DNA from: Paenibacillus harenae DSM 16969
Lineage (GTDB): Bacteria; Bacillota; Bacilli; Paenibacillales; Paenibacillaceae
Assembly (NCBI RefSeq): GCF_000422465.1
Contig: NZ_AULV01000018.1
Coordinates: 62,001-126,000, forward strand
Length of the DNA stretch: 64,000 bases
Direction of reading: 5' to 3'
Below, piece by piece: positions 42,562-53,982 of this stretch (position 1 is its first letter; each line of letters opens with the position of its first letter). A model generated the notes under the pieces. It was not told the DNA's origin. It did not search any database and was given only the letters and a program-made list of their open reading frames with translations. Position numbers and translations under genes: made by a program.

Positions 42562-42609
42562 TTGACGTTTGTCTCAAAAAAACATATCATCAATTGAGAA
42601 TGATTATTA
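42562..42609 (+). promoter_or_regulatory. Fur-controlled promoter of the glycan operon
   Basis: TTGACG and TATCAT at 17-base spacing, followed by TGAGAAT-G-ATTATTA (42595-42609), a Fur box with two mismatches from the 7-1-7 consensus, covering the transcription start. Confidence 0.7.
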
Positions 42610-42641: not shown

Positions 42642-43574
42642 ATGTCTATAAAATGGATCATGCGTCTGTCGGCTATTGCATTGCTTGCTGTTTTTATATG
42701 GATGACATGGCGGTGGTTCGATAAGGATCAATGGCTGGGCGATCTACTTTTGCTTGTAAAGCAGCCGCAGTGGCTTATGTTCATGTTTACGGCCTATTTG
42801 CTGTCGTTCGCTCTGAAGGCGGAGGCTTGGCGAAGGTATACGGGAGCAAACGAACGCTTTAGCATCTTTTTTCATGGCATCATCTACAGTTTGCTGATAA
42901 ACCATTTGCTGCCGCTAAAAGTCGGAGACATTGTCCGTACCGGTTTTTTGAAGAAAATGGCCAATAAAACATGGGACGAAGCGCTGTATTCGGTAACCGT
43001 CATGCGTTTGCTCGATATGCTCGTTTTATGCCTCTATGCCGGCGCGGGCATCGTTTGGCTGGGTCTACCATCCTCTTGGCTATGGGTCGCCGTATTGCTG
43101 GCAGCAGCAGTCCTTCTGGCTGTTTGTTTCAAGCTACCGGTCATAAAAAAAATACCGCTGATACAAAAACACTTGGCGCATTTCAAAGCAACGATGCTCT
43201 CGGGCAAAGGGCTGTTCATCATGGCTGCGTTAGCAGTAAGCTGGATTTTAGAAGCGGGCGTTATTTTCGGCATTTCCAGCATACTCGGGCTGAATCTGGG
43301 TGCCGTCCCCCTCGTTTGGGCCAACAGCATGACGATTGCCGGACAAGTCTTTCATATTACGCCTGGAGGAATTGGTACGTACGAGAGCACATTAAGCGGT
43401 TCGCTCGCAGTGCTCGGAATAAACGGGAGGGAAGCATACGGGGCGGCGATTTTGTCGCATGCGTTCAAATTTGTGTTCGCCTTCGGAATGGGAGCTTATT
43501 CCCTGCTTCGCATGCCGCTCGGCTGGAGGGAAGCGAGAATATGGATCAAGGAAAGAAGAACAGCAAAGGAATGA
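42642..43574 (+). CDS. UPF0104/lysylphosphatidylglycerol-synthase-TM-like protein
   Basis: A 310-residue integral membrane protein with about eight spans. Conserved family elements are LLINHLLPLKVGDIVRTGFLKK in the N-terminal half and HITPGGIGTYESTLSGSLAVLG near the C-terminus. The family (AglD/MprF membrane-domain type) is associated with moving lipid-linked molecules across the membrane. Here it heads a Fur-controlled operon with glycosyltransferases, so a flippase-type role for a lipid-linked sugar is a reasonable inference. Confidence 0.8.
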   Translation: MSIKWIMRLSAIALLAVFIWMTWRWFDKDQWLGDLLLLVKQPQWLMFMFTAYLLSFALKAEAWRRYTGANERFSIFFHGIIYSLLINHLLPLKVGDIVRTGFLKKMANKTWDEALYSVTVMRLLDMLVLCLYAGAGIVWLGLPSSWLWVAVLLAAAVLLAVCFKLPVIKKIPLIQKHLAHFKATMLSGKGLFIMAALAVSWILEAGVIFGISSILGLNLGAVPLVWANSMTIAGQVFHITPGGIGTYESTLSGSLAVLGINGREAYGAAILSHAFKFVFAFGMGAYSLLRMPLGWREARIWIKERRTAKE

Positions 43575-43581
43575 TTTTATT

Positions 43582-45066
43582 ATGAAAAAGGCATCCCCGT
43601 TTGAAATTGTGGCTGCGAGATGTTGGAATCTGTTGAATGAAGGTAAACCGTTCACCCCGATTTTTGTGCTCGGCGTTTTTCTGCTTTATCGCATAGGAGA
43701 GTGGTCCGATCCTTCGTTCTGGAGCGCGGCAGGACTCGGGCTGTTGGTAACGTTACCTTTTTTCGTTATTTATTACTGTTTTGATTTTCCTCTATTGCTT
43801 CGCAACTATTTGTGGCTGCCCCTCATAGCCGCGCTGCTCGTCTGGGATCATGGGAGCCTTTCCCTTTATTTGCTTGCGCTTGGCCTATTCTTTTTTTTCA
43901 CCGTCTATTTTTGGGGCACGTTCTATTACCATTTACGGATCGGCACGTCATGGTGGAATTTTACCCGTTTCTGGAAGCTGGTGCTGAAGAACAGCGATTC
44001 GACCAGCGGTAACGCGCAGGAGCAGATGCCGAAGTTTTTGCTGCTGCTGTTGATTTGGAATCATTTTTATTCTGTTTTTTATCCTACCGGTTCCGTTGCA
44101 GTTGCCCCGCATCTGCTTGCGCCGGCTATATTTGCCGTATGCTTATGGCTATACAGCTACGTGCTTCATGCGAATCTGTTCGATTGGAAGCCGGCGGAGG
44201 ATTCTCCGCTAACGGATAAGTCGGGCTGGCCGGAGACGGCTGTAAACGAGAAAGTAATCGTCATTGTTATTGACGGCATGCGCAAGGAACGGTTCGAAGA
44301 AGCGAATGCGCCTTTTCTGAAGAAACTAAGGGCCGAAGGAACCGAGTATGCCCAAATGGAAACGGTCTATCCGGCGCGTACGGTCGTTTGCTTCTCATCG
44401 ATGTTCACGGGCACGTACCCTCGCGAACACGGCATTCGGTCGAACATGGTGTGGAAGCTCGGCATCAAGGTAGAAAGTATTTTCGATTCGCTCCGCAAGG
44501 TCGGCAAAACCGGCAGGCTGCTGGGCATCGCCCATTTGATCGATTCAATGGGAAGCGACGTGGAAAGCGTTACGGCCGTGATGCATAACGACGCTGCGGA
44601 CCGGAATATCATCGAGCGCGCGAAACGAATCATGGACGAGCAAAATCCGGATTTGCTGGTGGCTCAGTTGATTGGCGTCGACCAAACCGGACACAGCAGG
44701 GGCGTGCTTTATGATGAATATTTGCAGAAGATCGAGGAAGCCGACCGTTTAATCGAAGAGTTCGTAGACTGGTTGGATAACCGCGGTATGATGAAGAATA
44801 CGACGCTGCTTATTTGCGCGGACCACGGACAGGCTGACGGTATCGGCGGGCACGGCCACCTTGATGAAGGGGAGCGATTTGTGCCGTTCTTTCTGCACGG
44901 TCCTTCAATCAAGAAAGGTCTACGCATCGAAGAGAAGCATTCCCTCATATCGATTGCTCCGACTTTAGCTTATTTGCTTGGAGCTCCGGTTCCAAGCAGC
45001 AGCAGAGGTACAGTGCTCTCGGAGTCCATGAAGACAAACGCGGATCGGGAAAGGAAAACATCATGA
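43582..45066 (+). CDS. Membrane alkaline-phosphatase-superfamily phosphodiesterase
   Basis: A 494-residue enzyme. Residues 1-210 form about five membrane spans and the rest is an outward-facing catalytic domain of the nucleotide pyrophosphatase/phosphodiesterase type: VIVIDGMRKERF (metal Asp), YPARTVVCFSSMFTG (Thr nucleophile), LIGVDQTGHSRG, CADHGQADGIGGHGH (metal Asp/His set). All metal ligands are present. Relatives act on nucleotides, phosphodiesters or add phosphoethanolamine. The internal ATG behind AAAGGAATGA was chosen; a longer frame overlaps the previous gene. ATGA overlap with the next gene. Confidence 0.8.
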   Translation: MKKASPFEIVAARCWNLLNEGKPFTPIFVLGVFLLYRIGEWSDPSFWSAAGLGLLVTLPFFVIYYCFDFPLLLRNYLWLPLIAALLVWDHGSLSLYLLALGLFFFFTVYFWGTFYYHLRIGTSWWNFTRFWKLVLKNSDSTSGNAQEQMPKFLLLLLIWNHFYSVFYPTGSVAVAPHLLAPAIFAVCLWLYSYVLHANLFDWKPAEDSPLTDKSGWPETAVNEKVIVIVIDGMRKERFEEANAPFLKKLRAEGTEYAQMETVYPARTVVCFSSMFTGTYPREHGIRSNMVWKLGIKVESIFDSLRKVGKTGRLLGIAHLIDSMGSDVESVTAVMHNDAADRNIIERAKRIMDEQNPDLLVAQLIGVDQTGHSRGVLYDEYLQKIEEADRLIEEFVDWLDNRGMMKNTTLLICADHGQADGIGGHGHLDEGERFVPFFLHGPSIKKGLRIEEKHSLISIAPTLAYLLGAPVPSSSRGTVLSESMKTNADRERKTS

Positions 45067-45812
45067 GCAAACAGAAGATTGTCGTCTTCATGCCGGCGCA
45101 CAACGAAGAAAGCAATATCGCGAGCGTAATTGCCAGAGTCCCGAGAAATTTTCATTCGCATTACACGATAGAAGTGCTTGTCATTGACGATGGCTCCACG
45201 GACGACACGGCGGCTGTTGCGAAACAGGCGGGAGCCGACCGTGTTGTTTCCTTTCCCCGCAACCGCGGTCTTGGTGCTGCCGTTCGCGAAGGCTTGGCGG
45301 AATGCTGCAGAATGGATGGCGCTATCGGGCTGATGATCGACGCCGACAATGAATACCCGCCCGAGCAAATTCCCGACGTTCTCGCGCCGATTATTGCAGG
45401 CAGCGCCGATTATACCTTTGGCTCGCGATTCAAAGGCCAGATTCGCGGGATGAAGCTGCACCGAAGGCTCGGGAACTACGTATTCACGCTGCTGCAGGCT
45501 TTGCTGCTTCGCAAATGGATTTATGACGGACAATCCGGGATGAGAGGATTTTCCCGCGAAGCTATGGAGAAGGCGGAAATTATTCACGATTATAATTATG
45601 CCCAGGTACTAACGATCAACCTGTTAAGGCAGGGATTTCGTCTTGAGGAGGTACCGATCTCCTATCAGGTGCGCACAATGGGGCAATCTTTTATTAAGTT
45701 CCGGCAATACGTGACATCCGTCATTCCTGCGATCTATATGGAAATGAGGCGTCCATTGTCCGCAAAGAGAGCAGGGGAGGCTTTGCCCCGCGAGGAGAGA
45801 GCTCATCCATGA
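45063..45812 (+). CDS. Glycosyltransferase family 2, DPM1-like
   Basis: A 249-residue soluble GT2: VVFMPAHNEESNIASVIARVP, IEVLVIDDGSTDDTAAVAKQAGA, GAIGLMIDADNEYPPEQIP (DxD) and DGQSGMRGFSREAM. Compact size without membrane spans resembles dolichol/polyprenyl-phosphate mannose synthases, which make the lipid-linked sugar donor used by GT-C enzymes. Just such an enzyme is encoded next, with overlapping starts and stops on both sides. Confidence 0.85.
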   Translation: MSKQKIVVFMPAHNEESNIASVIARVPRNFHSHYTIEVLVIDDGSTDDTAAVAKQAGADRVVSFPRNRGLGAAVREGLAECCRMDGAIGLMIDADNEYPPEQIPDVLAPIIAGSADYTFGSRFKGQIRGMKLHRRLGNYVFTLLQALLLRKWIYDGQSGMRGFSREAMEKAEIIHDYNYAQVLTINLLRQGFRLEEVPISYQVRTMGQSFIKFRQYVTSVIPAIYMEMRRPLSAKRAGEALPREERAHP

Positions 45813-47407
45813 CACGTGCCGCGCTCAAAGCGGGTACGGTGTTTTTCAGCGTCATTGTTATTCTCCTATCCGTCTATTTGTCTATTCGCAATGCCAATCC
45901 AATTGCGCGTAGTTGGGACGAGGTGGATTTTGCGCTTGCTCTGTACCGGTTCGATTTGCTCGCCATGCAGCCGCATTTTCCGGGCTACCCTTATTTTATT
46001 CTCGGAGCCACCGTCATTCATCGTTGGATCCAGGACCCCGTTCAGGCATTGTCCGTATTCAACACGCTGGCGGCGTTCAGCTCGGCCATTCCGATGGCGC
46101 TGCTGGCACACCGTTTCACCGGCGGCGGGGGCAAGAGCCTGCTGTTCGCCGCGTTTGTCTTGACGAGTCCCTATTTATGGCTGATGTCGGCGCGGCCGAT
46201 GTCCGAATGCGCGGGCATTGCCGTTCTGTGGTGGTTTTTATGGAGCGTACGGACAGCGATGGGACGTCCGGGCTCCATGCTGCTGCATATCGTTCCATTG
46301 CTGCTGTTTGGGCTTCTGATGGGAACACGCTTATCGTTCTTTCCGTTCGGAATTGCTCTTCTGCCGCTGTGGGCGGTCCAGTACAAGCGAAAGGGGAAGA
46401 GGGGCAGGCGGCTTTGGCTGTCCTTTGCGGCGGCTTTGTCTGCTCAGCTTGTATGGGTCGTCGGGCTGGCGCTCTCGGAGGGGACCCTGAGCGGTTTTTG
46501 GAAGCTTTCCGTTGCTTTTATTGAAGGCCATTTCTCAGAGTGGGGCGGAGGAGTCGCTTCCTCCAATATGGAGTTCGGCCGGCGTCTGACGCAGCTAATG
46601 GGTCATAATCTGATCGGACATGCGCTGCTTGGAGGATCTGCCATCGTTGGCATTCTGCTGGCACTGCTTCTGGCAGTTACCGGCATGGGACTGTGGCAGC
46701 GCCGGTTATGGCGGCACCATTTATTTTCTATGAACGGGGTTAATCGCGCCGCAGCGCAGGGAAGTCAGCCGGCTCCGGCTAAGGAACAGGCAAACCGGCA
46801 ATTTTACATTTGGCTTGCTGTCTCCAGCGGCGTGTATGTGCTGTGGGCGTTATTCGGTCAAAATATCGAGAAGCCCCGACATATCGCCCCGGTGGTCGGT
46901 CCGATTCTGTTTTTCATATACTGTGCGGCTTACGTTACGGCATCGTCACTTTGGGCTGCGCGTCTGCCGGAACGACTTATCCGTTCGTCTGCCATCCCCA
47001 TAGCCATTCATGTGTTGCTATTCGCACTCGTTTCCGCCCAGATAACGAGCGGGGCTAATCTGCTTCAGCGACAGGCTGCCGAGGTTCCGGCGGTTTATCA
47101 GCTTCACCGCTATGCAAGCGAGCTGAAGGAGCCCTTCTTGCTGTATACCTGGGAGGAAACGCGCGTGCTGCAATATTTGGGAGCCGATTACGAGCATCGG
47201 CGGATCTTTACCTATAAGTATTTCGAAGCGACCGCGGCCGCCAATCCAGAACGCCGTGTACTGCTCACGGATCATGTTTTGCAAGGATTCGAACAGCAAG
47301 GCGGGCAGGTGCGGGAACAGGTGAAACCGGTCGCCGTGTTCAAATCGGACCCCTTATTCGATCCGGTGTATGCTGATATTACCTTATACGAGTGGATCAA
47401 AAAATGA
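45809..47407 (+). CDS. GT-C-like membrane glycosyltransferase
   Basis: A 532-residue polytopic protein with ten or more spans. The first outer loop has SWDEVDFALALYRFDLLAMQPHFPGYPYFILGA: an acidic D-E-x-D pair and the P-H-F-P-G-Y motif seen in GT39/GT83-like enzymes that use polyprenyl-phosphate sugars. The last 110 residues form an extracellular domain ending in DITLYEWIKK. I infer transfer of a sugar from the lipid donor made by the DPM1-like enzyme to a surface acceptor. It ends the operon at a hairpin terminator. Confidence 0.75.
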   Translation: MTRAALKAGTVFFSVIVILLSVYLSIRNANPIARSWDEVDFALALYRFDLLAMQPHFPGYPYFILGATVIHRWIQDPVQALSVFNTLAAFSSAIPMALLAHRFTGGGGKSLLFAAFVLTSPYLWLMSARPMSECAGIAVLWWFLWSVRTAMGRPGSMLLHIVPLLLFGLLMGTRLSFFPFGIALLPLWAVQYKRKGKRGRRLWLSFAAALSAQLVWVVGLALSEGTLSGFWKLSVAFIEGHFSEWGGGVASSNMEFGRRLTQLMGHNLIGHALLGGSAIVGILLALLLAVTGMGLWQRRLWRHHLFSMNGVNRAAAQGSQPAPAKEQANRQFYIWLAVSSGVYVLWALFGQNIEKPRHIAPVVGPILFFIYCAAYVTASSLWAARLPERLIRSSAIPIAIHVLLFALVSAQITSGANLLQRQAAEVPAVYQLHRYASELKEPFLLYTWEETRVLQYLGADYEHRRIFTYKYFEATAAANPERRVLLTDHVLQGFEQQGGQVREQVKPVAVFKSDPLFDPVYADITLYEWIKK

Positions 47408-47430
47408 TGACATTGTCATCATTTTTTTTG
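47401..47430 (+). terminator. Glycan operon terminator
   Basis: AAAATGATGA/TCATCATTTT with a five-base loop and T run; the gene's stop codon lies inside the left arm. Confidence 0.8.
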
Positions 47431-47521
47431 CGGTGACCTCAGAAACTATTGGATTCTTAGAGGGTAAAAGCTAAAAAATGAGATAACTGAAAGTTTGCCG
47501 AAAAAATAGCTGACACAAGTA

Positions 47522-47552
47522 TTGACGTTTTGACCGATAATGATTATCATTT
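47522..47552 (+). promoter_or_regulatory. Fur-controlled promoter of the FTR1 operon
   Basis: TTGACG and TATCAT at 17-base spacing with GATAATGATTATC (47536-47548), a perfect Fur palindrome, lying across the spacer and -10. Same -35 and -10 hexamers as the promoter 5 kb upstream. Confidence 0.85.
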
Positions 47553-47593
47553 TAAATTGTGAGTGAGAAATATTATCATTGAGAGGTGTTGAG

Positions 47594-48706
47594 ATGAAAC
47601 GTTGGCTGCTATGCGTTCTTCTCTTGGTTACTGCAGCGTTACATATCGCGCCGTCCCAAGCGCTGGCCTATTCTTACGGAGATGCCAATACGGAAGATAT
47701 TGCTGAAACATTCAAATTGGTAGAAGCTAATTTGGCCGGTGCATCGCCTGATTGGAAAGCTGCGGAAGAAGCTTATAAAGTCCGGAGACCGGAAATTGTG
47801 TCGCACTTCGGCGAAGCGGTGGGTGCAACGCTTGATAACAATTTCAAGGACAAGGACGCCAAACTGACCGTAGCCAATTTCAAAGCTGTGCTTGTGATGA
47901 ATCTGGATAGACGCTTCGCTTATGCGATCAAGGGCTTCGACGATTATGCCCAAACGAAGCTGCTGCTCGCAAAAGCAAAAGCTACCTTTGATACATTGAA
48001 GCCTTATGTCAGCTCAAAGACTGACGAAATAAACGCGGCGTTCGATGCGGCACTGGAAGCGCTTGGAAATCCTGGTCTGTTCGGCGTCGGCCAGAAAGCA
48101 GCGGAACCGGACGTATTTAAGGAAAAGGTGAATTTCATTTACGGTATCGTGAAGCCCTTGTTCCCTTATAAGGCTTATGTCAAGCCTGCTGCAACTCCAA
48201 AGCCAACTGTAACTCCAAGTTCAACTGTAACTCCAAAGCCGACTGCATCCCCGAAGCCTGCTGCAACCCAGAAGCCGTCTGAAGAGCCGGCGGATATCAC
48301 GGGAAGTGAAAAGCCTGCCGCAATTGCGGGGACCGATGCGGCAGCGGCTGATCAAGCATCTGAAGCGGATAACCAATCTGTTGAAGCTAATGCAGGGCAG
48401 GACGGCAACGAGTCGGACAAGGACGTCGCTGATGCTGTTACTGAAACGGATGCCGATGCTTCAGCAACACCCGTTCCTGCGGTGAGTGAGACGGTGGAAA
48501 CTGCAGAGCTGAATGCCGCTGCAGGGGAGGAAGCTGCGTCAACCGACAGCAGCAGTGAAGGGGAATCCGGCGAGGAGCTTTCGGCGCATGCCCCTATGGA
48601 GCAATCCGATAAAACGAATCCTCTGGTAAGCGTATCGGTTATCAGCGGTGTTGTATTGCTGGCAGGCGGAGCCGTGTGGCTTGCCCGCAAAAAAAAATGG
48701 TTATAA
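47594..48706 (+). CDS. Fur-regulated membrane-anchored surface protein
   Basis: A 370-residue exported protein. Signal peptide MKRWLLCVLLLVTAALHIAPSQALA. A helical domain (about 26-195) contains LDNNFKDKDAKLTVANFKAVLVMNLDRRFAYAIKG. A Pro/Thr linker of KPTVTP-type repeats and a long acidic Ala/Glu/Asp region (about 235-340) lead to a C-terminal span, LVSVSVISGVVLLAGGAVWL, and a basic stop-transfer (ARKKKWL). There is no sortase LPxTG motif. The helical domain resembles one in the next protein. By position, a candidate outer-face partner of the FTR1 permease, possibly holding iron near the membrane. Confidence 0.6.
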   Translation: MKRWLLCVLLLVTAALHIAPSQALAYSYGDANTEDIAETFKLVEANLAGASPDWKAAEEAYKVRRPEIVSHFGEAVGATLDNNFKDKDAKLTVANFKAVLVMNLDRRFAYAIKGFDDYAQTKLLLAKAKATFDTLKPYVSSKTDEINAAFDAALEALGNPGLFGVGQKAAEPDVFKEKVNFIYGIVKPLFPYKAYVKPAATPKPTVTPSSTVTPKPTASPKPAATQKPSEEPADITGSEKPAAIAGTDAAAADQASEADNQSVEANAGQDGNESDKDVADAVTETDADASATPVPAVSETVETAELNAAAGEEAASTDSSSEGESGEELSAHAPMEQSDKTNPLVSVSVISGVVLLAGGAVWLARKKKWL

Positions 48707-48731
48707 AAATGATAATATGGGAGAGATTAAA

Positions 48732-50213
48732 ATGCGCAAATGGTTAGCAATGATTTTAAGCGTTTCGCTCGTGGTATCATCCTTCTTTACGCTGGCTTCC
48801 GCTGTAAGTGCCGAAAGCAAATTCAAGATTACCGAAGATTCGGTTTTAGCGGACCGGATCAAAGCGTTTGCCGACATTAAAGCTTTGTTCACAGATAATA
48901 CGGTACTCAGTGACGTAAAAGCTTTCTATGTGGATAAATTCCAAACGGAAGTGAAACGGATCGACGCGACCATCAAACCGGATGACCCGAAGATCGACGA
49001 TAACATTGTACTTGTTTTGGACAATGCGATTGCTGGCTCCCTGAATGTGGGTCAAGCCAAACAGGCTGTCGATAAGGGCTTGCAGTGGTACTTCTACTTC
49101 GCTATCCGCGATCTCATTAACAACCAGGTTAGACCGGCGCTCAAAGACGGCGACATGGCGACGGCTCAAACGGCATTCTATAAAGTTGCTCAGATTTATG
49201 AAGGTGTACTTGAGTCTACCGTAGTAAAACGCGACAATTCGTACAGCCTGCACATGGCGGACATTCTGAAAGGCACGATCGAACAGCTGCTTAGCGACCT
49301 TGAAAGCGGAAATGCGGATGACTTCAACGTCCATCGTCAGGTGCTGGATAAGACGCTGATTAAAACGTTTGCGCTCGCTGTTCATACGTATGCGAAAAGC
49401 ATACCGACGAAGCCGGCTGCCGATCAACCGGCTGCGCTTACCGAAGCTTACTTCTTCTTTATGCCTATATACACTTATTTGAAAGGCGGCAGCGCGGCAG
49501 ACGCCGATTACATCCGCAGCGTTTTCGCATCGGGGGATGCAAGCCAAGTCAATCTCGAAAAAATTCAGGATGCAATGCAGCTGACAATGATCGGCAAAGT
49601 ATCCGAGTACGTTAACCAGGCTTTTGTCAAATTGAAAGCTGACGATTTACAAGGCGCACGCGGATACGCGATGGAAGGGAACATGTTTCTTGCGTCTCAA
49701 GAAGTGTTCCTGGGTGCGGAGAAATATGCGGCAGCATCAGCTTTCGCGCAGAAATTCTCTGATGCGGTAGACAAATCCGATCTTGCGTCCGCCGAGACGA
49801 ATGCTTTCCAAGTGCTAAAGTTTCTGGTGGCGAAAGACGGCGTTCAGCTGAAGATTGACGATAAAAAATACCAGATTAACGGCATGGATTATGAAGCGGA
49901 TGTCGCACCTTACATCAACCCGCAAACGAGCCGCACCTTGGTACCGGTTCGCGTAATCGCAGAGGCGCTGAAGGCGGAGGTCAGCTATGACGACGCTCTC
50001 AAGAAGGTAATCATCGTGAAAGACGGCAAAACGACCGAGCTTAAGCTCGGTTCGGATGAAATTGTGCAAAACGGTCAAGTCAACGCGGATGTGAAACTGG
50101 ACCAGCCTGTTGTCGTGAAGAACGCCAGATCGTTTGTTCCGCTGAGGGCAGTGGCTGAGCTGTTTGGCAATAATGTGTTTTATAGTAAAGGCGAAATCAT
50201 TATCCTTCGCTAA
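48732..50213 (+). CDS. Secreted helical protein with C-terminal CuAO-like domain
   Basis: A 493-residue exported protein (signal MRKWLAMILSVSLVVSSFFTLASAVSAES). Residues 30-390 are helical and contain two similar halves: AVDKGLQWYFYFAIRDLINNQVRPALKDGDMATAQTAFYKVAQIYEGVLE and MQLTMIGKVSEYVNQAFVKLKADDLQGARGYAMEGNMFLASQEVFLG. The end (about 385-493) is a copper-amine-oxidase-like cell-wall domain (TLVPVRVIAEALKAEVSYDD, SFVPLRAVAELFGNNVFYS). Between a surface protein and the FTR1 permease, it may take the place of EfeO/EfeB or FTR1 periplasmic domains. Start ATG behind GGGAGAG. Confidence 0.65.
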   Translation: MRKWLAMILSVSLVVSSFFTLASAVSAESKFKITEDSVLADRIKAFADIKALFTDNTVLSDVKAFYVDKFQTEVKRIDATIKPDDPKIDDNIVLVLDNAIAGSLNVGQAKQAVDKGLQWYFYFAIRDLINNQVRPALKDGDMATAQTAFYKVAQIYEGVLESTVVKRDNSYSLHMADILKGTIEQLLSDLESGNADDFNVHRQVLDKTLIKTFALAVHTYAKSIPTKPAADQPAALTEAYFFFMPIYTYLKGGSAADADYIRSVFASGDASQVNLEKIQDAMQLTMIGKVSEYVNQAFVKLKADDLQGARGYAMEGNMFLASQEVFLGAEKYAAASAFAQKFSDAVDKSDLASAETNAFQVLKFLVAKDGVQLKIDDKKYQINGMDYEADVAPYINPQTSRTLVPVRVIAEALKAEVSYDDALKKVIIVKDGKTTELKLGSDEIVQNGQVNADVKLDQPVVVKNARSFVPLRAVAELFGNNVFYSKGEIIILR

Positions 50214-50226
50214 GCGAATTGGAAGA

Positions 50227-50262
50227 GGAAGACACTTGCGTCTATTGGCGCAGGTGTCTTCC
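50227..50262 (+). promoter_or_regulatory. Stable intergenic hairpin before FTR1 gene
   Basis: GGAAGACACTTGCG pairs with CGCAGGTGTCTTCC with one mismatch and an eight-base loop. No T run follows, so it is more likely an mRNA-processing or partial attenuation element than a full terminator. Confidence 0.55.
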
Positions 50263-50298
50263 TTATAAATGTGACTGTAGAAGGCAGGAGATGGAAGC

Positions 50299-51213
50299 AT
50301 GGATTTACAGGCGTTTTTGATCACCTTTCGCGAAGCGCTGGAAGCCATATTGATCGTAGGGGTAATACTAACCTATCTGACCCGGATTGAACAAACGCGT
50401 TGGCATAAATGGGTTTGGGTCGGAGTGGTGCTTGCTTTGGCCGCAAGCTACGGCGTTGCGCTGGCCTTCCAGATTATATTTACCGGATTCGCGAGCATGG
50501 GCAGCCAAAATTATTTGAAAATCGGAATCATGCTTGTGTCCTGCGGTTTGCTGACCCATATGGTTATGTTTATGAGCCGTCAGGGCGACATGCAGGGAAA
50601 AGTGCAAAATAAAATCGCATCTATATTAACCGTAGGCGGCGTCGTTAATATGGTGCTTCACTCTTTTCTCGTGGTCGTGCGAGAGGGTGTGGAAACGGTC
50701 TTTTTCTTTGCCGCGATTACGGGAGGGGATATCCAGAAAGCGCTTGAAAGCTGGGGCGCGCTGGGAGGACTTGTTTTAGCCTTGGTCGTCGGGTATCTTT
50801 TTTTCAAAGGAACCAAAAAAATCAGCCTGCGCACGTTTTTCAGAATTACGTCCGTGTTTCTCATGATGATTTCGGCAGGGCTTCTGGTGCAGGCAGTCGG
50901 TATTATGCAGGATATTGGCATGATGGGCAGCATTTTTCGGACAGCTGGAGGGGAGATCGGAGAGGTTTATAATATTACGGCATTCATGCCGGAGCATCCG
51001 ATCGACGAAACGCAATATATCCGCGATACCGGCAGCCGGCCGTTAATCAACGGACAAGTCGGAATTTTCATGAAAGCTTTTTTGGGTTATACCCAGAATC
51101 CTTCCGTGGAGGAATTTTTGTTGTATTGGGGTTATTATTTCTTTCTGTTTGTTCTGTTGGCCGTTCAGCGAAAACGGATTGTGATAGAAGCAGTCGAAAA
51201 ATCAGCAGCCTAA
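50299..51213 (+). CDS. FTR1-family iron permease
   Basis: A 304-residue membrane protein with about seven spans. The two R-E-x-x-E iron-binding motifs are present: FREALEAILIVGV in span 1 and VVVREGVETVFFFAA in span 4. Length and topology match the EfeU/Ftr1 permease core without the large N-terminal extracytoplasmic domain found in many Firmicute versions. It takes up iron across the membrane. No EfeO or EfeB gene is nearby; the two upstream secreted proteins are candidate replacements. Confidence 0.9.
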   Translation: MDLQAFLITFREALEAILIVGVILTYLTRIEQTRWHKWVWVGVVLALAASYGVALAFQIIFTGFASMGSQNYLKIGIMLVSCGLLTHMVMFMSRQGDMQGKVQNKIASILTVGGVVNMVLHSFLVVVREGVETVFFFAAITGGDIQKALESWGALGGLVLALVVGYLFFKGTKKISLRTFFRITSVFLMMISAGLLVQAVGIMQDIGMMGSIFRTAGGEIGEVYNITAFMPEHPIDETQYIRDTGSRPLINGQVGIFMKAFLGYTQNPSVEEFLLYWGYYFFLFVLLAVQRKRIVIEAVEKSAA

Positions 51214-51232
51214 TATGGAGCGTGAACTGAAA

Positions 51233-51988
51233 ATGAAGGTCGGCATTGTCGGATATGGTCATGTCGGAAAAGCGATGCACGTATTGTTCCCGGACGCAGC
51301 GGTTTATGATGAACCTTTACACTTGGGAAGCCGAGAAGATGTGAATCACTGCGATGTCGCGTTCGTTTGCGTTCCGACGCCGCAGCATCCAAGCGGGAAA
51401 TGCGACTCTTCTATCGTAGAGGAGGTTTTGGCATGGCTGCAGGCGGAGGTTATTGTCGTCAGATCGACCATTCCGGTAGGATTTACGGATGATCAGAAAC
51501 AAAAGACGGGGAAGCGGATTGTTTTCCAGCCGGAATACTACGGAGAAACCGCGGACCATCCCTTCGCAAGCCTTAGTCACCGAAAATGGTTGGCGTTCGG
51601 CGGGGCATCCGAAGATATAAGCATGGCGGTCCGGGCATATCAGAAGGTATACAATGCCGAGGTGAAGCTGGTGCTCACGGATGCCAAAACGGCGGAACTG
51701 GCGAAATATATGGAGAATTGCTTCCTGGCGCTGAAGGTCGCGTTTTGCAATGAATTCTATGATTTGGCCAAAGCTTATGAAATCAACTATGATGAGCTGA
51801 GGGAAGTTTGGCTTGAAGATCCGCGGATCGGCAGAAGCCATACGTTCGTTTATGAGGAGAGCCGGGGCTTCTCCGGGAAATGCCTGCCCAAAGATTTGAA
51901 TGCGTTAATTGATATGGCCGATGAAAAAAACGTAAATGTCGATTTGATGAAGTCCGTCCGCGCAAAAAATGAGGATTGGCGGCGGTAA
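51233..51988 (+). CDS. Compact nucleotide-sugar dehydrogenase
   Basis: A 251-residue protein of the UDP-glucose/GDP-mannose dehydrogenase family. The Rossmann motif VGIVGYGHVGKAM starts it, VCVPTP and STIPVG follow, the middle domain holds AELAKYMENCFLALKVAFCNEFYDLA, and the catalytic Cys lies in GFSGKCLPKDLNAL. The C-terminal nucleotide-sugar-binding domain of standard 430-residue enzymes is absent, yet the frame ends cleanly. The start is ATG with GGAG upstream; a frame six codons longer is possible. It lies close behind the FTR1 gene, likely on the same Fur-controlled message. Confidence 0.75.
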   Translation: MKVGIVGYGHVGKAMHVLFPDAAVYDEPLHLGSREDVNHCDVAFVCVPTPQHPSGKCDSSIVEEVLAWLQAEVIVVRSTIPVGFTDDQKQKTGKRIVFQPEYYGETADHPFASLSHRKWLAFGGASEDISMAVRAYQKVYNAEVKLVLTDAKTAELAKYMENCFLALKVAFCNEFYDLAKAYEINYDELREVWLEDPRIGRSHTFVYEESRGFSGKCLPKDLNALIDMADEKNVNVDLMKSVRAKNEDWRR

Positions 51989-52765: not shown

Positions 52766-52921
52766 GTTTTAAATCGCAACGGGCTGTTTCCTGATTTGGG
52801 AGTCGGACATACTGATAGGAGCCCCGTGTGCAAGCTTATTAAAACGATTGCCCCCTATTTTTTTACCGAGTGAAAAATAATGGGCTGCTCAATTGTATTA
52901 CTAGTGAAAGGGGGACATCAG

Positions 52922-53401
52922 GTGCACGATTCATATGAGCTCAATGAATCCGTTCGCAAAGCCGTGGTCAATTATTCCGACAGTCTGGTTAAGATCGCGT
53001 TCGCTTATCTCAAAAACGTTGCCGACGCGGAGGAAGCGGCGCAGGACGTGTTCCTCGCTTATCTCCAGAAATCCCCCGTCTTCGAGAGCGGCGAACACGA
53101 GAAAGCGTGGTTGATCCGAACGACGATCAATAAATGCAAGAACATGCTGAAGACGGGCTGGTTTAAAAGCCGGAACCCGATACCGGATAATCTGTCTTAC
53201 CTTCCGAAGGATGATTACATGGTCCTGCAGGCTGTATTGTCCTTGGACAAGAAATATCGTATCCCCATCCATCTGCATTATTACGAGGGCTATTCCTTGG
53301 AAGAAATAGCGGACATTCTCCATGCCAAACCTGCAACCGTAGGGACTTGGCTTGCGCGCGGACGTAATCAGCTTAAAGCGGTTATAGGAGGTGATTTGTG
53401 A
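52922..53401 (+). CDS. ECF-type RNA polymerase sigma factor
   Basis: A 159-residue sigma-70-family factor. Region 2 covers FAYLKNVADAEEAAQDVFLAYLQ and region 4 is YRIPIHLHYYEGYSLEEIADILHAKPATVGTWLARGRNQLK. The GTG behind GAAAGGGGG was chosen over an upstream ATG. It overlaps the next gene, a membrane protein, by four bases; such pairs usually encode the sigma factor and its anti-sigma partner. Confidence 0.88.
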   Translation: MHDSYELNESVRKAVVNYSDSLVKIAFAYLKNVADAEEAAQDVFLAYLQKSPVFESGEHEKAWLIRTTINKCKNMLKTGWFKSRNPIPDNLSYLPKDDYMVLQAVLSLDKKYRIPIHLHYYEGYSLEEIADILHAKPATVGTWLARGRNQLKAVIGGDL

Positions 53402-53982
53402 AGATGAAAAAATCGGGTTACAAATCGGCCGTTTCCAAATTGAAAACGAGCGAGGACTTTCAGGAACGCACGCTTGAGCGGTTAAATCTTGAAGGGAACA
53501 AACGAATCGATATCGATAAACGAAGAGGAGAGATTTATATGAAAACAACGAATCCAACCGCTAAGAAAAGTAAGGCAGTGATCTGGACGGCGGGGATTGC
53601 GGCAAGCGCGGTACTGGCCTTGGGGATCTATGCGGTTAATCAAACCGGCAGCGGCACTGCCAATGATCCGGCTGTAAACAACCCGGGCAGCGGCATCGTA
53701 GAAAACAATGGCCCTGGAGCGGGCACGACGGCGAAGCGCCAGGTCAATATCGAAGGCGTAATTGAAGAAGTAGGCGCTGACGGCCAAAGCTTCCGGATCG
53801 GCGAGCTGTGGGTGGAGGTAAATGAAAATACGACTTACGGCATTACGGGCGACACGGCTCCGGATCAATCTGAGCAGCTGGTCAGCAAAGAGTTCAAAGT
53901 AGGTAACACGGTGTCCGGCTTCACCACGGGAGACGTTGCGAGCGGGAAAGTAACGGCCGACGTGATCTATAATAATTTTTAA
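53398..53982 (+). CDS. Membrane partner of the ECF sigma factor, likely anti-sigma
   Basis: A 194-residue single-span protein. The cytoplasmic part (1-58) is short and basic with no zinc-binding H-x3-C-x2-C motif. The membrane span is AVIWTAGIAASAVLALGIYAV (about 60-80). After an Asn/Gly/Pro-rich linker the extracytoplasmic domain (about 118-194) is strand-rich and ends AVTADVIYNNF-like, as in small OB/DUF5666-like folds. Translation is coupled to the sigma gene through a GTG. It probably holds the sigma factor until an outside signal is sensed. Confidence 0.65.
   Translation: MKMKKSGYKSAVSKLKTSEDFQERTLERLNLEGNKRIDIDKRRGEIYMKTTNPTAKKSKAVIWTAGIAASAVLALGIYAVNQTGSGTANDPAVNNPGSGIVENNGPGAGTTAKRQVNIEGVIEEVGADGQSFRIGELWVEVNENTTYGITGDTAPDQSEQLVSKEFKVGNTVSGFTTGDVASGKVTADVIYNNF

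Follow-up and report, generated by a model that had tools for sequence, protein, structure and literature searches.

An FTR1 permease gene cluster of Paenibacillus harenae with two exported helical proteins, a putative glycosylation module and predicted Fur boxes

The window analysed here, a 64,000-nucleotide stretch of the 7.0 Mb draft genome (28 contigs) of Paenibacillus harenae DSM 16969, carries eight co-directional genes (42642–51988) in which a glycan module, LPG–PDE–GT2–U (42642–47407), lies directly upstream of the genes for two exported helical proteins (P1 and P2) and an FTR1-family permease, with a short gene for a protein resembling uridine diphosphate (UDP)-sugar dehydrogenases as the last of the eight. 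The strongest new fact about this cluster is the strict link between U and P1, which were found in exactly the same genomes both of the family and of a sample of the class. We consider it reasonably probable (about 0.6) that the cluster encodes a Fur-repressed FTR1 iron importer that receives its iron from capture proteins at the surface and is linked to an extracytoplasmic glycosylation route of its own. An initial annotation, made from the DNA alone, had described the unit as P1, P2 and FTR1; these parts are all in place but the glycan module bound to them upstream had been missed. The features are listed below with their positions in the window, strand and best supporting match (E, expect value).

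42562–42609, + strand: promoter-like site TTGACG-17-TATCAT (42562–42590) and Fur-like box TGAGAATGATTATTA (42595–42609, 2/14 mismatches), ahead of the glycan genes
42642–43574, + strand: LPG, flippase-like membrane protein of the LPG_synthase_TM/TIGR00374 type (TIGR00374, E 1.2e-7, below cut-off)
43582–45066, + strand: PDE, membrane protein with an alkaline-phosphatase-superfamily/type I phosphodiesterase domain (PF01663, E 8.9e-33); the start is an internal ATG chosen to match homologues, in a frame open from 43459
45063–45812, + strand: GT2, Dpm1/AglJ-like glycosyltransferase of family 2 (PF00535, E 4.6e-27; TIGR04182, E 1.4e-30, below cut-off)
45809–47407, + strand: U, PMT-like GT-C membrane glycosyltransferase (class taken from homologues)
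47522–47578, + strand: promoter-like site with Fur box (47535–47549) and a second Fur-like site TGAGAAATATTATCA (47564–47578, 2 mismatches)
47594–48706, + strand: P1, exported helical protein with a stalk and a C-terminal membrane anchor, mature start YSYGDANTE (from the sequence and an AlphaFold2 model)
48732–50213, + strand: P2, exported helical-repeat protein ending in a CuAO-N1 domain (residues 381–487; PF07833, E 2.3e-26)
50299–51213, + strand: FTR1 permease, short form, with both R-E-x-x-E motifs (PF03239, E 2e-38)
51215–51988, + strand: short UDP-sugar-dehydrogenase-like protein of 257 residues, directly after FTR1 (PF00984, E 5.7e-24)

Co-inheritance of U, P1 and the permease

P1 is present in 20 of 148 Paenibacillaceae genomes, and a high-scoring FTR1, U and a near-full-length PDE were each found in the same 20 when the sets were compared by eye. 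For these counts 9 of the 29 P1 matches were dropped (E 7e-6 to 1e-3, to P1 residues 122–367, which are mostly stalk), as were the FTR1 matches below the best 20 (the 20th has E 1.8e-31 and the next 5.9e-28) and, for PDE, 14 of 34 genomes in which the match was partial and fell in the phosphodiesterase domain. Searches with U were run at E 1e-10, weaker matches being unlisted, and three PDE and five U matches contain one in-frame stop within the aligned stretch. P1 and FTR1 belong to one cluster in all 20 genomes, either side by side or separated by P2 or U (P2 holds this position in 15), and FTR1 accompanies P1 in 79 of 80 named loci; the helical proteins thus stay with the permease, as the initial annotation implied, and do not occur mostly away from it. 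As the 20 genomes span four genera and make up a minority (3/14) of those in the window's own genus, the distribution of P1 is patchy. Nor is the system limited to Paenibacillaceae, since there are named loci from Bacillaceae and the sample of the class extends the finding to 18 families. In this sample P1 is present in 49 of 299 genomes and U in the identical 49 (compared as typed lists), while P2 is found in 47 of the 49 P1-positive genomes versus 2 of the other 250, after removal of one P1 match (G341, E 9e-4) and of P2 matches with an E of 4.5e-5 or above, which concern 20 of the 69 genomes.

Two P1 peptide patterns, one of which was [IL]GNPGLFGV, gave 190 named loci, and the best 80 of these were used; the nearest named locus found for the window is that of Paenibacillus prosopidis (96% for the P1 domain and 93% for FTR1). 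Within 6 kb FTR1 was found in 79 loci, U in 78, GT2 in 71, PDE and P2 in 70 each and LPG in 61. The queries and profiles used for these gene counts, and for the Fur-box counts given below, came from the same loci or from the window, some genes are missed at the ends of contigs or of the 6 kb flanks, and because near relatives are included the counts do not represent independent events. The order is mostly LPG–PDE–GT2–U–P1–P2–FTR1 in Paenibacillus and mostly P2–SDR–LPG–PDE–GT2–P1–FTR1–U in Bacillus and its kin, and two loci have P2–P1–U–FTR1–PDE–GT2. A copy of the Bacillus-type cluster also appears in a record titled Chryseobacterium sp. ISL-80 (L202), a label that is possibly wrong.

Since the gene set persists through these differing orders, joint function is the best explanation. 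Conceivably the glycan genes have no functional tie to FTR1 and are bystanders that were inherited as neighbours: the order is constant among close Paenibacillus relatives, conserved order alone can reflect descent, and in 2/80 loci U was not found near P1. This seems to us highly improbable, however, as the set stays together while its order differs among lineages, U is found at E 1e-10 in every P1 genome, including two (G412 and G441) in which P1 and U are both present on different contigs, and in none of the 128 or 250 P1-negative ones, and the glycan genes have Fur-like boxes of their own.

Fur-like boxes and the glycan module

Boxes were scored against the 7-1-7 Fur consensus. Ahead of P1 the core CGATAATGATTATCA (47535–47549) has 1/14 mismatches, so that the 'perfect Fur palindrome' of the initial annotation holds for the inner GATAAT-G-ATTATC and not for the whole box. 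It was the single site recovered by a 19-mer Fur search of the 64 kb (mean of shuffled sequence, 0.04) and it overlaps the −10 of the promoter-like TTGACG-17-TATCAT at 47522–47550. The promoter-like site ahead of the glycan genes (42562) shares both hexamers, TTGACG and TATCAT, with the one at 47522; the first precedes and the second overlaps a Fur-like box. In related genomes, where the boxes are consensus matches and are to be read as predicted sites, a box with no more than 2/14 mismatches precedes P1 in 69 of the 80 loci (2.9 expected from random windows), and in loci where P2 stands well before P1 there are boxes ahead of both genes in 29 of 32. Among the 30 LPG-first loci, 23 also carry a Fur-like box (up to three mismatches) before LPG, where 0.9 would be expected, the random windows having been taken in both cases from the same loci with the real boxes included.

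The glycan genes can be assigned by class. An LPG homologue in one locus (L175) matches PF03706 with E 5.1e-28, and 10 of 26 U homologues match PMT_2 (best 2.7e-7). GT2 is closest to polyprenyl- and dolichyl-phosphate hexose synthases and is a candidate polyprenyl-phosphate hexose synthase. In three-component extracytoplasmic glycosylation, as outlined in an excerpt of PMC11127046, a polyprenyl-phosphate-sugar synthase acts with a flippase and a GT-C enzyme. The cluster resembles this in having a GT2, a flippase-like protein and a GT-C protein encoded together, by fold class only (the LPG match is below cut-off and the class of U comes from 10/26 homologues), and in having an epimerase in some loci; it differs in that the flippase-like protein is of the LPG_synthase_TM type, a membrane phosphodiesterase is added, and the genes have Fur-type boxes and keep company with an iron permease. 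Dehydrogenase and epimerase genes are present in part of the 80 loci and, as a speculation, would be in keeping with a sugar of uronic or epimerised type that possibly helps to hold iron.

Conservation of PDE is strong (63–93% identity over the 19 other P1-positive Paenibacillaceae genomes), U is strictly co-inherited with P1, and two Fur boxes flank the glycan genes in P2-first loci. All three observations would suit an envelope that is remodelled under iron limitation, with a glycan or glycolipid as the main product; FTR1, P1 and P2 would then aid its assembly or sense the envelope rather than import iron. We regard this as improbable, as both R-E-x-x-E motifs, which are those of iron transport, are kept in 79/79 cluster FTR1s and the Fur box found in 69/80 loci lies directly ahead of P1.

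P1, the permease and the Efe systems

From its sequence P1 has a signal peptide, a helical domain, a Pro/Thr/Ala/acidic stalk and a C-terminal hydrophobic helix. The acidic stalk and membrane anchor proposed at the outset are therefore present, and the helix is found in 79/79 homologues scored, one of the 80 having been omitted as the landmark motif used by the script is missing from it. An AlphaFold2 model of the domain (pLDDT 94) is essentially all-helical with seven helices, and Y1, Y3, G4, N78, R81, R82 and K102 are invariant across 62 aligned domains; the near-invariance of a further motif, GNPGLFGV, is partly built in because [IL]GNPGLFGV served as a search pattern. P1 leans weakly to the EfeO/imelysin group. 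Fourteen of 62 members match M75 (PF09375, best E 0.0015) and four match EfeO models (best E 0.0049), Foldseek places E. coli EfeO in its first row (E 0.46, probability 0.77), and the best natural protein in profile searches of the PDB is Algp7 (E 0.078 with a small profile and 0.22 with a large one), which we take to be an alginate-binding, EfeO-like protein. The window's own P1 gave no library match below E 0.05.

The permease matches PF03239 with 132.8 bits (gathering score 25.3) and the two R-E-x-x-E motifs noted by the initial annotation can be read in the translation as REALE and REGVE. FTR1 is known to work with oxidases or with EfeO/EfeB, and the annotation had placed P1 and P2 'in place of EfeO/EfeB'. 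This is borne out in so far as the window genome has a single FTR1 (by the Pfam model) and no match to PF04261 (the EfeB Dyp-type peroxidase) or to PF09375 (EfeO/M75), but with respect to EfeO it may be only half right because of the weak leaning of P1 to EfeO/imelysin. EfeB and EfeO models were both matched in 3 of the 20 P1-positive genomes, at a separate locus beside another FTR1. In a tree of 50 FTR1s 33 FTR1s of the cluster, 27 from the 79 named loci that have one and 6 others, are split from 17 others of the family on a 100/100 branch, which is long and of a kind that the tree tool flags; E. coli-type EfeU was not included. Short-frame FTR1s of two genomes (G142 and G015), which are among the matches dropped below the best 20, group with the long FTR1s in this tree. 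Most FTR1s fetched from other Paenibacillaceae (L115–L127, L129 and L130) have an N-terminal extension, and a profile comparison with 15 sequences gave no relation of this extension to P1 or P2.

The cluster is thus like EfeUOB, EfeUO and EfeUOB-M systems, whose Bacillus subtilis counterpart is presumably YwbLMN, in combining an FTR1-family permease with exported helical proteins, of which P1 is weakly M75-like, under iron-type control. It differs in that the window genome has no detectable Dyp peroxidase or M75/EfeO, in having P2 and the glycan module, in the separation of its FTR1 from the family's other FTR1s and in that both systems coexist in 3/20 genomes. The likeness to Fet3–Ftr1 of yeast is confined to an FTR1 permease with two R-E-x-x-E motifs; no multicopper oxidase was seen in the cluster, and the CuAO-N1 tail of P2, a domain that we take to be without catalysis, looks like an anchor rather than an oxidase.

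A stripped-down EfeUO, with P1 as a divergent EfeO/EfeM (M75) protein, FTR1 as EfeU, no EfeB any longer, and accessory surface genes in the form of P2 and the glycan module, would agree with the M75, EfeO, Algp7 and Foldseek matches of P1. It would also have a precedent in bfeUO of Bifidobacterium breve, which according to excerpts of PMC5449479 imports ferrous and ferric iron and had been named bfeUOB in an earlier study. We think this explanation rather unlikely. All of the matches are weak and none is to the window's own P1, and HxxE, the mark of M75, is not kept in the P1 family (H in 57/62 and E in 32/62). Where EfeO and EfeB do occur they adjoin a different FTR1, and the strict co-occurrence of U would be left unexplained.

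P2, its possible FEA1-type relatives and the proposed route

The second protein had been said to carry its helical domain twice and to end in a CuAO-like domain. The helical part of P2 is modelled by AlphaFold2 as essentially all-helical (pLDDT 97), and self-comparison of a wider P2-family profile gives an off-diagonal match (probability 96%, E 4.8e-9) at an offset of about 86 columns, which supports the repeat; with a smaller profile the two halves gave no match to each other. The CuAO-like end is confirmed by the PF07833 match. Whether P1 and P2 share a helical domain, as was also claimed, is a borderline matter: profiles of the wider families match with 72% probability (pairwise E 3.4e-5 over 150 columns), those of the small families give nothing, and the helical motif that had been put forward is exact in the first P2 copy while P1 has L at a V position. 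K89, D142, Q177, D180, K181, E289 and F293 are invariant in 56/56 P2 helical regions, and Y40 and E212 of the aligned domain are conserved positions too. P2 homologues have either a lipobox (39/70) or a CuAO tail (31/70) and never both, as counted by motif scripts with a Pfam check on 5 proteins that added one CuAO tail; because the two are mutually exclusive, the idea that the CuAO domain serves as a surface anchor gains support.

Thirty of the 56 P2-family helical regions match NCBIfam NF038033, 'FEA1-related lipoprotein', at E ≤0.01 (best 4e-11). Against this model two P2-type proteins reach 29 and 40 bits, and for two proteins only was the match observed to lie beyond the signal peptide. 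Nine of the 56 regions have a match to a cytochrome c551 model as well, for which the lipoprotein signal is probably responsible. Judged on profile matches, the P2 family is a possible distant relative of the FEA1-related lipoproteins. Stand-alone P2-like lipoproteins are encoded at L111:5694-6950 and L112:4969-6204 in two of the five P1-positive genomes with no P2 in the cluster (G145 and G088), and the first of these matches FEA1_rel_lipo with 1.9e-10; the role of P2 in these genomes may be supplied from elsewhere.

FEA1, or phytotransferrin, is a surface iron-capture protein of algae, and Allen et al. (2007) reportedly found co-expression of Chlamydomonas FEA1 with FTR1. Excerpts of PMC7883536 equate the FEA1-domain proteins of algae with phytotransferrins, and those of PMC4855317 describe Ot-Fea1 as an iron-loaded protein with a duplicated domain, a signal peptide and a C-terminal transmembrane segment, give FEA1 of Chlamydomonas as co-expressed with FTR1 and call its role a matter of debate. 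Algal FEA1, Ot-Fea1 and the ISIP2a phytotransferrins are alike in being surface or secreted proteins that are internally repeated and made under iron limitation. P2 has a layout of this type (internal repeat, signal peptide, and lipobox or CuAO tail), which is a generic feature, and it differs in that its link to the algal proteins runs only through the name of NF038033, below cut-off, algal sequences not having been compared. In the open-access literature, which leaves out most subscription papers, we found neither a study of a bacterial FEA1 nor an FTR1–glycan cluster.

From the anatomy of the proteins, their predicted regulation and their co-occurrence we infer the following route. Under iron limitation P2, anchored at the surface through a lipid or, in the window's protein, through the CuAO-N1 domain, would capture iron. 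The smaller P1, an EfeO/FEA1-like bundle of helices on a stalk and membrane helix, would hand this iron to FTR1, which would move it inward via the R-E-x-x-E pathway. GT2 would load a sugar on polyprenyl phosphate, LPG would flip it, U would transfer it and PDE would add or remove a phosphate-linked group, and this glycosylation route would modify P1 or P2, or else an envelope component in close association with them; the importer would not be kept without U.

Several points weigh against a glycosylation-coupled importer of this kind. The P2 of the window itself gives no match to an FEA1 profile, and the curated cut-off of NF038033 (250 bits) is reached in 0/198 genomes. No strong match exists for P1, and UreE, an unrelated model, is matched by 5/62 P1s with a better best E (1.8e-4) than EfeO or M75, which places the EfeO/imelysin signal near the level of noise. 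No PDB fold match at E 0.001 was obtained for P1 or P2, and the window's U has no direct match in Pfam or NCBIfam. P2 may be non-essential, as it was not found in 5/20 genomes and 10/80 loci. In Ammoniphilus (L189:4584-6672) P2 and P1 are adjacent, but the flanking 6 kb contain neither FTR1 nor U, PDE or GT2, and L153 has no U within 6 kb, the same species having U at L135. U is fragmentary in G361 and a pair of pieces in G137, all at contig ends, and the co-occurrence in 299 genomes covers P1, U and P2, not FTR1. A second P1 copy in G077 (L110:5322-6119) stands outside the cluster, with no FTR1 in the 11.5 kb fetched; ferritin-like and ferric-reductase-like genes, read by eye from translations, lie 3–4 kb from it.

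If the glycosylation-coupled importer is accepted, so strict a tie between a permease partner and a GT-C enzyme would be unusual, in that a nutrient importer would have a glycosylation route of its own; it also gives P1 and U, two unnamed families, a concrete role that can be tested. A further step, which we put forward as doubtful, is that the cluster is the Bacillales counterpart of the algal FEA1/phytotransferrin route, with FEA1-type surface proteins that are hard-wired to FTR1 and become functional in capture through a dedicated GT-C glycosylation under iron control. Were this so, the algal FEA1–FTR1 partnership would represent a single branch of an old scheme in which surface capture feeds FTR1, and a bacterial iron importer would depend on glycosylation as one of its parts. 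The debated role of algal FEA1 would also become testable in Bacillus relatives that are easy to handle, because the cluster ties the capture protein to the permease.

The part played in the iron system by the UDP-sugar-dehydrogenase-like protein (51215–51988) is uncertain. It matches TIGR03026 with E 1.7e-42, below cut-off, and has no PF03720 match, that is, it is without the C-terminal UDP-binding domain; as a query it matches related dehydrogenases in 26/80 loci, with full-length ones possibly among them. Beyond it, after a ribose-5-phosphate isomerase gene, the window has a gene for an extracytoplasmic function-type sigma factor followed by a gene with a weak DUF5666-like match (E 0.067), together at 52880–53982.

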